A DNA stretch of 44,919 nucleotides. Source: Allofustis seminis DSM 15817. GTDB lineage: Bacteria; Bacillota; Bacilli; Lactobacillales; Carnobacteriaceae_A. The stretch lies in the NCBI RefSeq assembly GCF_000374325.1, contig NZ_KB894087.1:1-44919 (forward strand), written 5' to 3'. A program made the position numbers and the translations under genes. The notes under the pieces are model-generated. The model worked only from the letters and a program-made list of their open reading frames with translations, ran no database searches and had not been told where the DNA came from. Position 1 is the first letter of the stretch; every line of letters begins with the position of its first letter. Positions 730 through 15,238 of this stretch are shown one piece after another.

Positions 730-1083
730 TTAGTCTTCGATGTTTCTTGCTTCGTTGATACCGCTGGCTAAAGATTCCATTAAGGATAGTTCTTTGTCTG
801 TAAAGCTATCCATGTATTTCTCTATCTGTAATCGTCGGGTGCTTTTTACCAAGTTATTAGCAGGTAAGAAAAATTCATCAATGGAAACATGAAGTAACGA
901 TACAAGGTCATAAAGAACTTGTATGCTGGGGTGTTGCCCTTTATTTTCAATATTAGTTAAGTACCGTGGGTCAATTTCAATCAATGCTCCCACTTGTTCA
1001 CGAGTTAAACCTCGTTTCAATCGAGCTTCTTTAATGGCTAAACCAAAGGCTCTAAAATCATATTTATCTTCTTTTTTACGCAT
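730..1083 (-). CDS. Xre-family HTH regulator (Tn916 Orf9)
   Basis: 117 residues. A helix-turn-helix of the Xre/Cro type occupies roughly residues 15-70 ([21 protein letters not shown]), followed by a short helical tail. It corresponds to Orf9 of Tn916, which has been proposed to repress transcription of the orf7/orf8 regulators and so transposon transfer. It is the only leftward gene in the transposon segment, convergent with orf6 across the shared terminator. Start ATG has the Shine-Dalgarno GAGGTGG just upstream on the reverse strand. Confidence 0.93.
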
Positions 1084-1587
1084 AGTAGACCACCTCTATA
1101 CATTTTATTGTTCCTACTGAATTAAAAACAGGTATAGAAAAACGTGTTATATGGTTTATAGGTTTATATTTAATAAAAAGCACTACTAAACGCCAATAAA
1201 AAAAACCGTTATATGGTAGTGCTATTTACGCTGTTAAAATATTGTATATTACTTCCAAATGGCGGTTTGTTGGAGGTCAACGTCGCCATGAAGTACATCA
1301 TATACAATAAATTTCCTTACATTGGGTTCTTGTCAAAAAAAGTCGTCTATCTGCAATAGATAAGTACGTCCACCAATGTGGTTTTATAAATCATATAGAT
1401 AGAATAACAGAAGCATGTAAACAGAGAAATAAATCTGTTTATATGCTTTTTTGGCTATTCAGAACTTTTTTACAAAGTTTATTTATCAGTAATGCAACAA
1501 ATCCCCCTTTCACATTGGGACTAAGAGTGAAAGGAGATAAACGAGCAAGGCTCACTTCCTTTCCTAGACAGAAAGGGGGTGAGAAAC
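1084..1587. other. Regulatory gap between orf9 and orf7
   Basis: About 500 bp without a convincing gene. It holds a hairpin (1179-1186 with 1216-1223), a strong terminator at 1411-1452 and the leader of orf7. The small Tn916 'orf10' is annotated in this area in some records, but no start with a good ribosome site supports it here. In Tn916 this gap is where the orf7 promoter and its transcriptional attenuation lie, so a regulatory role is likely. Confidence 0.6.
1411..1452 (+). terminator. Rho-independent terminator upstream of orf7
   Basis: AAGCAT..AAACAGA pairs with TCTGTTT..ATGCTT across a short loop, followed by a run of T. It would stop transcripts entering from the left, so orf7 needs a promoter after 1452 or read-through. 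Confidence 0.8.
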
Positions 1588-2901: not shown

Positions 2902-2982
2902 CGTCGCCAAAGGGTCTTGTATATGATAAAATAGTATTAAGTCGTATCAAGGCTCTTTCCATAAAGGAAAGGAGCAAATGCC

Positions 2983-4200
2983 ATGTCAGAAAAAAGACGT
3001 GACAATAAAGGTCGAATCTTAAAGACTGGAGAGAGCCAACGAAAAGACGGAAGATACTTATACAAATATATAGATTCATTTGGAGAACCGCAATTTGTTT
3101 ACTCGTGGAAACTTGTGGCTACAGACCGAGTACCAGCAGGAAAGCGTGATTGTATCTCACTTAGAGAGAAAATCGCAGAGTTACAGAAAGACATTCATGA
3201 TGGTATTGATGTTGTAGGAAAGAAAATGACACTCTGCCAGCTTTACGCAAAACAGAACGCTCAAAGACCAAAGGTTAGAAAAAACACTGAAACTGGACGC
3301 AAATATCTTATGGATATTTTGAAGAAAGACAAGTTAGGTGTAAGAAGTATTGACAGTATTAAGCCATCAGACGCTAAAGAATGGGCTATTAGAATGAGTG
3401 AAAATGGTTATGCTTATCAAACCATCAATAACTACAAACGTTCTTTAAAGGCTTCATTCTATATTGCTATACAAGATGATTGTGTTCGGAAGAATCCATT
3501 TGACTTTCAACTGAAAGCAGTTCTTGATGATGATACTGTCCCTAAGACCGTACTAACAGAAGAACAGGAAGAAAAACTGTTAGCCTTTGCAAAAGCTGAT
3601 AAAACCTACAGCAAAAATTATGATGAAATTCTGATACTCTTAAAAACAGGTCTTCGTATTTCAGAGTTTGGTGGTTTGACACTTCCAGATTTAGATTTTG
3701 AGAATCGTCTTGTCAATATAGACCATCAGCTATTGAGAGATACTGAAATTGGGTACTACATTGAAACACCAAAGACCAAAAGTGGCGAACGTCAAGTTCC
3801 TATGGTTGAAGAAGCCTATCAAGCATTTAAGCGAGTGTTAGCGAATCGAAAGAATGATAAGCGTGTTGAGATTGATGGATATAGTGATTTCCTCTTTCTT
3901 AATAGAAAGAACTATCCAAAAGTGGCAAGTGATTACAACGGCATGATGAAAGGTCTTGTTAAGAAATACAATAAGTATAACGAGGATAAATTGCCACACA
4001 TCACTCCACATAGTTTGCGACATACATTCTGTACCAACTATGCAAATGCAGGAATGAATCCAAAGGCATTACAGTACATTATGGGACATGCTAATATAGC
4101 CATGACGCTGAACTATTACGCACATGCAACATTCGATTCTGCAATGGCAGAAATGAAACGCTTGAATAAAGAGAAGCAACAGGAGCGTCTTGTTGCTTAG
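2983..4200 (+). CDS. int: Tn916 integrase (tyrosine recombinase)
   Basis: 405 residues, the usual length for Int-Tn916. The N-terminal arm-binding domain (about 1-70) recognises the DR-2 repeats, the middle SAM-like core-binding domain follows, and the catalytic domain shows the Arg in TGLRISEFGG, the HxxR box in PHSLRHTF and the GHANIAMTLNYYAHA segment with the nucleophilic tyrosine. It is intact, so the element should be able to excise if the rest is present. The ribosome site is AAAGGAG, 8 bases before ATG. Confidence 0.98.
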   Translation: MSEKRRDNKGRILKTGESQRKDGRYLYKYIDSFGEPQFVYSWKLVATDRVPAGKRDCISLREKIAELQKDIHDGIDVVGKKMTLCQLYAKQNAQRPKVRKNTETGRKYLMDILKKDKLGVRSIDSIKPSDAKEWAIRMSENGYAYQTINNYKRSLKASFYIAIQDDCVRKNPFDFQLKAVLDDDTVPKTVLTEEQEEKLLAFAKADKTYSKNYDEILILLKTGLRISEFGGLTLPDLDFENRLVNIDHQLLRDTEIGYYIETPKTKSGERQVPMVEEAYQAFKRVLANRKNDKRVEIDGYSDFLFLNRKNYPKVASDYNGMMKGLVKKYNKYNEDKLPHITPHSLRHTFCTNYANAGMNPKALQYIMGHANIAMTLNYYAHATFDSAMAEMKRLNKEKQQERLVA

Positions 4201-12316: not shown

Positions 12317-13444
12317 TTATTTGTTACGTTCCACATATTCCGCAAAACTTTTTCCGAAGTTTTCTGCACTGGCTTTTGTAACATGAGTATAAATGTTCAT
12401 CGTGGTCGTGGCGTTAGAATGCCCCAAGCGTTGCTGCACGTTTTTGATGGTAGCTCCTGCTTCAAACGCGATGCTTGCGTGTGTGTGGCGCAAGCCATGA
12501 ATTTTTATAGGTGGAATGTGTGCTTGTGCTGCAATCTGTAGCAACCATTTTCTGGGCATGCTATCAGAAAGTAATTTTTCATCAGAGCAAGTGAACACAT
12601 AATCGTTTAATTGATATTTTTTTAATTGTTCAAGTATTTGAATCGTTTTATGGTCTAAAGAAACTGTTCGAAAGCTAGAGAGATTTTTAGGTTCTTTGAT
12701 ATAAACTTCTGAAATACCGTTTTTGCCCATTTTTCTTGAAATGCCTTGGCTAATTGACACTTTGCATGTTTCAAAATTTACATTTTTCCACGTTAACGCG
12801 ATGGCTTCTCCTTTGCGTAATCCTCCGAAAATTAAAAGTCTAAAAAAAGCTTGCTGCTGAAGGCTTTTATTTTCTAATACTTCTAAAAACTTGCGCAATT
12901 CTTCTTTTTCATAGAAAAGTTTTTTACTTTCTTTGATAGGCGGTTTGGGGATGGTGATTAATTCAGAGGGGTTATTGTGAACGATTGAATGCTTGAGTGC
13001 ATATCTAAAAATTCTTTTGATGGCAGAGGCCCATCGTCTGCATTTTTGAAAGTTTTTCCATTGATTAATAATTTTTTGAAGATCTGTAGCGGTTATTTTT
13101 CGTATTTTAAAATGACCGAGCGCTGGCAAAATACGATTTTCAAACATTTTTGTCGTAGAAAGATAAGTCGAGGCCGCAACCGTATTTTTATACTCGTCAT
13201 TCCACAAGTGATATACTTCTTCAAAAGTGTAGTTGTCAGTATCCTGTGTACTATCAAAATATTTACCCGCCACAACTTTTGCTTCGGTGTTTTTCAGCCA
13301 CAACGTTGCTTCACGTTTGGTTTTAAATCCCGATCGATTGGTCCGCTTTTGTTTTCCAGTCTTTGGATCCACCCCAAGATATACCCCTTGAACTTTCCAC
13401 CGAGTTTCGCCGCTTTTCAGTTGATATTTTTCGGGTTGTGCCAT
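12317..13444 (-). CDS. int: Prophage integrase (tyrosine recombinase)
   Basis: 375 residues, usual size for a phage Int. The N-terminal arm-DNA-binding domain has the AP2-like WKVQGVYLGVDPKTGKQKRTNRSGFKTK-type pattern, a SAM-like core-binding domain spans about 65-165, and the catalytic domain shows Arg in FGGLRKGEA, the HxxR box HGLRHTHAS, and GHSNATTTMNIYTHV with the active tyrosine. It reads outward to the left prophage end, the standard arrangement with attL downstream of the gene. Shine-Dalgarno GAAAGGAG precedes the ATG. Confidence 0.96.
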   Translation of the reverse strand: MAQPEKYQLKSGETRWKVQGVYLGVDPKTGKQKRTNRSGFKTKREATLWLKNTEAKVVAGKYFDSTQDTDNYTFEEVYHLWNDEYKNTVAASTYLSTTKMFENRILPALGHFKIRKITATDLQKIINQWKNFQKCRRWASAIKRIFRYALKHSIVHNNPSELITIPKPPIKESKKLFYEKEELRKFLEVLENKSLQQQAFFRLLIFGGLRKGEAIALTWKNVNFETCKVSISQGISRKMGKNGISEVYIKEPKNLSSFRTVSLDHKTIQILEQLKKYQLNDYVFTCSDEKLLSDSMPRKWLLQIAAQAHIPPIKIHGLRHTHASIAFEAGATIKNVQQRLGHSNATTTMNIYTHVTKASAENFGKSFAEYVERNK

Positions 13445-13512
13445 GAAATAAACTCCTTTCTATGATATAATGAATATTATAAAGAGCCCTTTTAAAAGGG
13501 TGATTTTGGTAT

Positions 13513-13560
13513 AAACACACGCGATTTGCTGGGGAGCAGGGCGTGTGTTTTTGTTTTTTT
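13513..13560 (+). terminator. Rightward-facing terminator in front of int
   Basis: AAACACACGC (13513-13522) pairs with GCGTGTGTTT (13541-13550), with an inner TGCT/AGCA stem, then a T-rich tail on the plus strand only. No rightward gene ends here, so it has no obvious client. Confidence 0.7.
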
Positions 13561-13673
13561 ATAGTGAAGTGAAACGGCAAATGTTTCACTTCGCCATTTC
13601 ATAGTGAAGTAAAAGCCAGAATACTTCACTATTGTTTCATATAGTGAAGTGAAACCGTTTTCGACTTCACTAT
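13561..13673. repeat. Three palindromes spaced exactly 40 bp apart
   Basis: The word ATAGTGAAGT begins at 13561, 13601 and 13641. Each copy is followed by its reverse complement: GAAGTGAAAC/GTTTCACTTC (13566-13575, 13583-13592), ATAGTGAAGT/ACTTCACTAT (13601-13610, 13623-13632) and again (13641-13650, 13664-13673). The set lies between the small RNA terminator and int. It may be a multi-site protein-binding region or structured RNA; no known family is recognised. Confidence 0.85.
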
Positions 13674-13699
13674 GATAATTTATTGGATAATTTGTAATA

Positions 13700-13774
13700 A
13701 AAAAAGCCGACACCTAACATGTGTCGGCACAACCCGTGGGTTACACGAGCCAAGGGCGAACCTTGTTTCCTCAT
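13700..13774 (-). ncRNA. Small structured RNA, about 75 nt, with own promoter and terminator
   Basis: Read leftward, a start near 13773 gives a transcript with three hairpins: CAAGG-uucgc-CCUUG (13765-13751), AACCC-ac-GGGUU (13742-13731) and GCCGACAC-auguuag-GUGUCGGC (13728-13706) followed by seven U, a textbook Rho-independent terminator. A near-consensus promoter lies directly upstream (13780-13808). No open reading frame of note is present. It sits between the DUF1828 gene and int in the lysogeny arm. I cannot assign it to an RNA family from memory. Confidence 0.75.
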
Positions 13775-13779
13775 AAAAA

Positions 13780-13808
13780 AATATACTACATTTTAATAAG
13801 GTAGTCAA
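13780..13808 (-). promoter_or_regulatory. Promoter of the small RNA
   Basis: On the reverse strand TTGACT (13808-13803), exactly 17 bp, TATATT (13785-13780), placing the start near 13773. Confidence 0.8.
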
Positions 13809-13872
13809 CACATTTAGAGATTACAACGGTGAAGAGAAAACATTTTCTGAATAGCTACTAATAGTTTTTGAT

Positions 13873-14655
13873 TTAGGCCGCAAATTCATTTTCAATTGTT
13901 TTCTTATCATTGAAGTTCACTACTTTAATATTATAATTTTCTAAAGCTAATTTATAATCGTCTGAAAGATTATTAAAGCCATCTTCGCTTATAATAATTC
14001 TTAACTCCTCATTGTCATTATAATTAGATTTTCTTACTTCAACTGTATCCAGCCAGCTTGCTAGTATGCTTTCAACTTGAGATTTATTAATAGTTCTAAA
14101 AACTTTCACTAATTTTGTTTTACCATTTGAGTGGAACGCATAATTAAACTTGTGATTTAAATGTGATTTACCGGCTAAATTAAACTCTGGTAAAAAAATA
14201 TATTTTTGGTTGTTAGTATTAAAGTAATCTTTAACGTCGTCAAAAAATTGTTGATAAACATTCTTTTGGGATAAATAAGTTAAATCATAAATTGAAAGTA
14301 AAAGTTGTGTCATGTCATGAATAGCTTGTCCTAATTCATTGGTGATCGTTATCTTGTAAATCTCATTCTCTTTATTAATACTAAAGCCATAGTAATTTAT
14401 TTTTGAATCAAGCAATTCCCGTCTTTTATTTTTTTTATTTAAATTAATATCTTGAAGATTCATGTCCCAATATGTGTATCCATTATCTGTAATAATATAT
14501 TTTTTCCCGTCTGCTCTAACTTCAAAGGAAATGCTTTCTCCTGTAGAATTTATAAAAGGGGTCACCACCTCAGTTTTTTGCCCTTTTGTTTTAGGAATTT
14601 GTGTGTTTTTTTCAATAAATTTCATATAACTTTCCTTAATCGCTAATGCATCCAT
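13873..14655 (-). CDS. DUF1828/DUF1829 domain protein
   Basis: 260 residues. The N-terminal half has the DUF1828 pattern (TPFINSTGESISFEV, then KKYIITDNGYTYWDM at about 40-60); the C-terminal half (about 130-255) resembles DUF1829, with a beta-rich stretch ending in SWLDTVEVRKSNYND. Function is not established for these domains. The ATG at 14655 has the AAGGGGG site 8 bases upstream; the longer in-frame start would include that site. It follows the DUF6978-like gene by 59 bp in the leftward lysogeny arm, the usual slot for superinfection-exclusion or defence genes. Confidence 0.75.
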   Translation of the reverse strand: MDALAIKESYMKFIEKNTQIPKTKGQKTEVVTPFINSTGESISFEVRADGKKYIITDNGYTYWDMNLQDINLNKKNKRRELLDSKINYYGFSINKENEIYKITITNELGQAIHDMTQLLLSIYDLTYLSQKNVYQQFFDDVKDYFNTNNQKYIFLPEFNLAGKSHLNHKFNYAFHSNGKTKLVKVFRTINKSQVESILASWLDTVEVRKSNYNDNEELRIIISEDGFNNLSDDYKLALENYNIKVVNFNDKKTIENEFAA

Positions 14656-14714
14656 GAATAACACCCCCTTCATATTTATAGTATACATTAAATAAAATAG
14701 TTTTATGATTTAAT

Positions 14715-15191
14715 TTAGACCAACAAATCTGTTTGGATGTTAATATTTAACAAGCCATTGTATTCAGTGTTTAAAAACTTAAGTACTTCTTTTAATAATA
14801 AAATAAAGTTATTAATACTATAAATATTTGCGTATGGCAAAGAATGAGCTTTCATATAGGTTGCTCCATCAGCTTTGTTAAAATACTCTTCTTCAGAAAA
14901 GATGTTTATACGTAGGCCTGCAACCTTTTCTTGGTTAGAATTTTTATGGAAGTTGTTGTCGATATTAACTCTAATTAAATTGATATTATTTTTAGCTTCC
15001 CTGAAATTAATTGTTTTTCTGTAATCTGAGAAAAAGTAATTCAAAATAAAAGGATAGCCATTATTGCCCAGTATTTTAATTTCTCCAGTTTCCTTATGAG
15101 ATGTAAAAGTTTTATCGATTTTTTTCTCGAGACTTTTTACTAACTTTATAAGTTCTTCAGCTTGTTGATCATTTATTGCTAAGGACTTCAA
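14715..15191 (-). CDS. DUF6978-like protein, partner of the DUF1828 gene
   Basis: 158 residues, no membrane segment, N-terminal amphipathic helix (QQAEELIKLVKSLEKKIDK) then a mixed alpha/beta body. It resembles proteins labelled DUF6978 that sit beside DUF1828 genes; I hold that assignment with moderate confidence. The likely start is TTG 15191, which is correctly spaced from GAAGGTGA; a GTG at 15200 overlaps that site. With the next gene it forms a two-gene unit in the lysogenic-conversion position. Function unknown. Confidence 0.6.
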   Translation of the reverse strand: MKSLAINDQQAEELIKLVKSLEKKIDKTFTSHKETGEIKILGNNGYPFILNYFFSDYRKTINFREAKNNINLIRVNIDNNFHKNSNQEKVAGLRINIFSEEEYFNKADGATYMKAHSLPYANIYSINNFILLLKEVLKFLNTEYNGLLNINIQTDLLV

Positions 15192-15238
15192 TTTTTTCAC
15201 CTTCTATATTATGAATTTAACTTTTATAAAATCATAAA

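Follow-up and report, generated by a model that had tools for sequence, protein, structure and literature searches.

The window, a stretch of 44,919 nucleotides from Allofustis seminis DSM 15817, carries a prophage whose integrase-side end comprises, all on the reverse strand, a DUF6978 gene (14715–15200), a DUF1828-DUF1829 gene (13873–14688), a small RNA gene (13699–13775) and, downstream of the RNA, a tyrosine integrase gene (int, 12317–13444). The two upstream neighbours were matched by PADLOC to PDC-M24A (1.1e-7) and PDC-M24B (2.7e-47), respectively, by protein models only, and the latter gene is treated here as a neighbour of the RNA rather than as part of it. The promoter, the three hairpins and the terminator of the original prediction were all present as claimed. 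The sigma-A type promoter TTGACT-17-TATATT (13780–13808, reverse strand) has its -35 at 13808–13803 and its -10 at 13785–13780. The RNA is about 77 nt long including the U tract, close to the ~75 nt predicted; it was the sole input for a covariance model, R1, used below. It begins with a purine-rich 5' element, GAGGAAACAA (13763–13772), the 3' end of which reaches into hairpin 1 (CAAGG-UUCGC-CCUUG, 13751–13765). Hairpin 2 (GCUCGUG-UAACC-CACGGGU, 13732–13750) abuts hairpin 1 and is followed, after a 3-nt linker, by the intrinsic terminator (13699–13728), with a stem at 13728–13706 and the U tract; RNAfold gave all three hairpins.

For the trimmed window RNA the minimum-energy structure and the centroid structure coincided (RNAfold), and an equally good fold was obtained in 8 of 1000 shuffled sequences (2 of 200 for a longer piece). 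With longer ends or the full U tract, the 5' purine stretch was able to pair with the U tract, both here and in the second copy described below. The predicted absence of a reading frame was borne out in that no listed ORF of at least 50 amino acids spans the RNA; a GTG-start ORF at 13492–13713 overlaps the terminator part only. A coding function was rejected, no ORF being common by eye to the window RNA and the second copy. Upstream of the RNA, as far as the stop codon of the DUF1828 gene, the minus strand has no other terminator-like site, so that transcripts coming from the operon would likewise stop at the RNA terminator.

The RNA was searched against Rfam 15, as the original prediction had proposed, and no known family matched it at gathering score; the overlapping matches at E-values up to 10 lay far below gathering, and the two gathering-score matches in the whole window (1071–1300 and 2520–2620) are both away from the RNA. 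At the DNA level, the search among phages gave weak matches only (best E 0.1), plasmids gave none, and the best match in 26 other genomes of the family had an E-value of 0.011 over 26 bases. A motif scan for TTGAC..TAT..T..GAGGAAACAA returned 23 loci including the window's own; a wider family on this basis was rejected, since in none of the 22 other loci did the 170 bases examined contain a terminator, and many of these loci were Shine-Dalgarno sites of genes, which GAGGAAACAA resembles. A wider family by model R2 was likewise not accepted: the candidates were L042/L110, L346 and L352, and the background of this model reaches 20 bits. Only two members of the RNA are known, both in one genome.

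The second member is a diverged copy in the genome of the window, at positions 1492–1568 of locus L185 (contig C3, 188500–191899). As read, the order at this locus is an Abi_2 gene, a promoter TTGACT-17-TATCAT, GAGGAAACAA with a three-hairpin RNA and terminator, a block of ~90 nt, and an integrase. The Abi_2 match, the only one in this genome and located at the end of contig C3, starts at family position 34; the gene is truncated and retains the motif RNACAH. The integrase is split between two frames, which share 24% and 34% identity with the window integrase. The locus looks like a decayed prophage; it is an apparent prophage or satellite remnant with a frameshifted integrase, and yet its RNA gene looks intact.

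The copy was spotted by reading the Abi_2 locus, and the model test came afterwards; it had been missed by blastn and by model searches with default filters. With filters off, R1 scored the copy at 24.1 bits (E 1.7e-8 over 301 bases; 4e-7 over 7 kb), which by our own arithmetic scales with length to ~8e-5 for the 1.44-Mb genome. The best R1 scores elsewhere were 16.3 bits in 97 kb from 15 other loci, also with filters off, and 16.2 bits in the 26 other family genomes. In a two-copy alignment (A8), which was fitted to the structure and so favours pairing, 38 of 38 counted cells pair, and 7 of the 20 base pairs are changed on both sides with none broken; these values were reached by 3 of 500 shuffles, and sliding the partners by 1–3 columns lowered pairing to 33–45% of cells. 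Compensatory changes in the stems are thus found across the two copies. The fold of the L185 copy was equalled by 2 of 1000 shuffles. Conservation extends beyond the terminator hairpin to the promoter spacing, the three stems and the 5' element, GAGGAAACAA being the longest stretch identical between the copies and mostly unpaired in the trimmed fold.

A structure-preserving second copy with a matching promoter supports an independent small RNA gene, and we regard it as highly probable, judging from the sequences, that the RNA gene is real in some form. The copy is flanked on one side by a truncated Abi_2 gene and on the other by an integrase with no more than 24–34% identity to that of the window, from which it follows that RNA and cargo assort independently; as far as sequence comparison goes, one RNA gene is accompanied by different cargo and a different integrase at each of its two loci. 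Of the original prediction, the independent gene is thus supported, and the proposed partnership with the DUF6978/DUF1828 genes is not, the copy being located beside Abi_2.

The reading that we prefer, although it is an even call, is that of a stand-alone small RNA of the integrase-side end of the prophage, acting in trans. The lysogen would make a compact RNA of ~77 nt from its own sigma-A type promoter and terminator, with no dependence on the adjoining cargo genes, and this RNA would act in trans on an RNA or protein target. The 5' purine stretch GAGGAAACAA is the likely site of contact with the target, since it is the longest identity between the copies and is mostly unpaired in the trimmed fold; in the modelled longer forms it may not be free, if paired with the U tract. 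As a side effect, the RNA terminator would shield int from upstream lysogeny-operon transcripts. When the 59 gene starts of the window were scanned for antisense targets, the best duplex was weaker than the mean best duplex of 40 shuffled RNAs.

What is a side effect in the trans-acting reading could also be the whole function: the unit would then insulate or attenuate int in cis, with transcripts of the repressor-DUF6978-DUF1828 operon, or those from the small promoter, stopping at the terminator ahead of int and the hairpins playing a supporting part only. The arrangement is consistent with this. The RNA shares its strand with int, which starts ~255 nt farther downstream, and the RNA promoter is the best one before int (10/12, the others there scoring 8/12). 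Within this interval, several TATAGTGAAGT-like repeats in both orientations were seen by eye at 13560–13675, which may be integrase arm sites. On the opposite strand there is a convergent RNA-like unit (13443–13556) with an extended -10 promoter, a CCCTTTTAAAAGGG hairpin and a stem at 13515–13548 followed by T; a ~90-nt block of this unit is ~90% identical at L185.

Units in a comparable place were found in streptococcal phages. The RNA of Streptococcus phage Javan197 is identical in three records, its own included, and has relatives 74–85% identical in another 19 records of streptococcal phages. Of the 22 records with a Javan197-type RNA, 11 were viewed (Javan197, phage 315.1, IPP5 and others), and in 10 of these the RNA stands directly before int with no annotated gene between; the exception is Javan597, where an Abi_2 gene and another gene intervene. 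The upstream genes change: a PemK-domain gene by Pfam in 5/11, a gene of PemK-like place and length in L180 and L182, and, once each, DUF1828, an M78 peptidase, DUF4429 and a repressor. Covariation in the streptococcal RNA is weak: a single pair shows changes on both sides, a few changes affect one side only, and Javan197 deviates, as aligned, at two outer pairs of hairpin 2. Among relatives of the window integrase (87 loci, 67 after removal of near-copies), the last 420–430 bases before int were inspected by eye for 58, and 56 lack a comparable unit, the exceptions being the window's own locus (L196) and L290. The L290 unit runs from promoter to terminator directly before the integrase and is unlike the others; it belongs to the same genus as the genome of L110, which we take to be Streptococcus. 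From these sequences, the integrase-side position seems to be used repeatedly for RNA-like units.

For the cis-only reading it counts that no annotated or evident gene separates RNA and int in L185 or in 10 of the 11 streptococcal records, and that in the streptococcal RNA, by our own reading, the 5' sequence UAGUUAC could base-pair with GUAACUA, an arm of the terminator. In the window RNA, however, such pairing of the 5' end with a terminator arm was not seen, the 5' end being able to pair with the U tract instead. Moreover, a terminator alone would suffice for insulation, which would make the two additional hairpins and the conserved element at the 5' end superfluous, and an int-proximal TATAAT (our own reading; 8/12 in the scan) suggests that int has a promoter of its own. 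A role in cis only is possible but unlikely.

The position of the second copy, immediately downstream of an Abi_2 gene with the RNACAH motif preserved, raises the possibility that the RNA is an orphan antitoxin or decoy for an Abi_2 RNase (AbiF/AbiD-type HEPN), either left over or kept to protect the lysogen. The original prediction had recognised no abi gene beside the window RNA, which agrees with what we found; the L185 copy has one upstream. In C. difficile, an AbiF RNA is reported to act as an antitoxin in trans (PMC12373285), and the RNA described here may work in a similar way. The DNA upstream of 30 Abi_2 genes (L329–L358) was inspected, and 17 had a promoter-hairpin-terminator leader by eye; ~10 of the 30 inspected regions end at or near the promoter, with the start codon set far upstream, and in 3 no leader was seen. 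At L135, a decayed Abi_2-type leader lies downstream of a DUF1828 gene, like that of Javan329 (L188), and no Abi_2 gene was seen behind it in the bases inspected. The streptococcal RNA of Javan597 was also considered as an Abi_2 leader and dropped, the Abi_2 gene there having its own.

The frequency of such leaders and the decayed example after the L135 DUF1828 gene would fit a decoy. The known leaders, however, lie upstream of abi_2 and the L185 RNA lies downstream, and the window slot is without Abi_2. The 17 leaders are by eye unlike the window RNA and diverse among themselves; R2 scored L346 at 20.2 and L352 at 17.8 bits, which is background (20.3 bits in L094). The AbiF RNA family RF03085 was not among the Rfam matches on the window or on 13400–13900, and was found in none of 11 genomes or records (the window's own genome and ten streptococcal ones) at E-values up to 10, with 150 of 507 candidates scored in the own genome. 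The RNA was thus rejected as a described AbiF RNA, RF03085 being negative and the gene order different, and a role as antitoxin or decoy for Abi_2 appears rather improbable. A more general variant is that of a fixed integrase-side RNA module of Lactobacillales prophages, mobile independently of integrase type and cargo, which would serve the slot as a whole, e.g. by decoying or neutralising in a general way the toxins (Abi_2 and others) that come and go there; this we consider distinctly improbable as well.

The ~100 nt between the RNA and the DUF1828-DUF1829 gene would also allow the RNA to be the RNA component of PDC-M24. This pair is a defence candidate of which we know of no test; among the papers searched, none uses the name PDC-M24, two mention DUF1828 and one DUF6978. 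The predicted structure of the B protein (13873–14688) has a mean pLDDT of 76 and a pTM of 0.49 and gave weak, partial matches, some of them to nuclease-type folds, for instance Can2/Cdn1 and also AF1548, which we take to be of nuclease type; the model of the A protein (DUF6978) is poor (pLDDT 54). DUF6978 was found in 26/395 genomes of the order, 9/348 of the class, and 7/245 and 29/301 of two families, these sets overlapping, and the B protein stands beside A in 56 of 60 stretches (partially in L127, L129 and L159).

Downstream of the pair, 58 distinct regions were compared (the window and others, some from phage and contig collections). A promoter-to-terminator unit occurs in five of them (L039, L038, L110, the window and L157) and at 4 of 303 other gene ends, many of which lie inside operons; with a stricter promoter the numbers are 3/58 and 3/303. 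The unit of L157 reads as a tRNA gene. Downstream of the DUF1828 gene of L110 there are two tandem promoter-hairpin-terminator units (~2940–3180, reverse strand). The excess over other gene ends, together with the fact that the two best R1 hits in the 97 kb of 15 loci fall behind the L110 pair (16.3 and 13.4 bits), would favour a component of PDC-M24. This set of loci, however, included some already picked by eye, L110 among them, and the R2 scores of L110 (20.3 and 17.7 bits) are matched at unrelated places (20.3 and 20.2 bits). The remaining 53 of 58 loci lack a unit, as do L170 and L171, whose DUF1828 proteins are 76% identical to that of L128. The idea of a partner RNA of PDC-M24 was rejected on these grounds. 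The second copy, which has a truncated Abi_2 gene and a different integrase for neighbours, further shows that the RNA is not tied to the DUF6978/DUF1828 pair. By the sequences compared, the RNA is not a fixed part of the pair, and that it belongs to PDC-M24 is very unlikely.

In the 4 kb scanned, 18 promoter-like sites were found where 16.3 were expected, and 10 terminator-like sites where 2.2 were expected, an excess as would come from gene ends. The promoter of the window is, on its own, at chance level and no evidence of a gene. That there is no functional RNA gene, the unit being the operon's 3' end with its terminator and a promoter-like sequence that arose by chance, would agree with these counts and with the terminator hairpins at many gene ends, but is very unlikely in view of the L185 copy, which retains the spacing of the promoter, the 5' element and, through compensatory changes, three stems.

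Overall, the find is real but modest: a small RNA that is new in itself and belongs to a general kind already known. In a computational screen of S. pyogenes, the prophage candidates, all of them next to integrase genes, were reportedly removed (PMC3675131); since such candidates were set aside and the window RNA has no Rfam family, prophage-encoded small RNAs seem to be under-annotated. A tiling-array study of S. pyogenes lists prophage-encoded small RNAs and, in its accessible text, states no adjacency to integrases (PMC2765633). If the integrase-side slot regularly holds an RNA gene, tests of PDC-M24 or Abi_2 cargo should include or exclude it on purpose.

Compared with known systems, PDC-M24 shares with the window the two genes upstream of the RNA, which match its A and B protein models, and differs in that 53 of 58 such loci are without an RNA-like unit behind the pair. 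Streptococcal prophages encode the small RNA Spy779816 (RF02589) in this intergenic region, on the convergent strand; it corresponds in place to the forward-strand unit at 13443–13556 and not to the minus-strand RNA, and RF02589 had no match in the window. In type III toxin-antitoxin systems (ToxI/AbiQ kind), tandem RNA repeats precede a gene of the ToxN/AbiQ type; the window RNA has three hairpins that are unlike by eye, and Pfam and PADLOC showed no ToxN/AbiQ-type gene among those of its neighbours that were scanned. The streptococcal unit resembles the window RNA in its position before int, its own promoter, two hairpins plus terminator and changing upstream genes, whereas its hairpins are separated by a linker and R1 and R2 gave no match above background, R2 scoring the RNA of L039 at 13.7 bits (E 0.28). 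The abiF RNA (RCd22, RF03085) is, like the window RNA, a prophage RNA of ~100 nt with a SigA-type promoter, two hairpins and a terminator; in contrast to it, the window RNA lacks the RF03085 motif and a downstream Abi_2 gene. The abiF RNA adjoins Abi_2 from upstream, whereas at L185 the truncated Abi_2 gene lies upstream of the RNA and in the window the RNA is followed by int. By this analogy in layout, and with no claim to membership, the AbiF RNAs are the nearest known kind.
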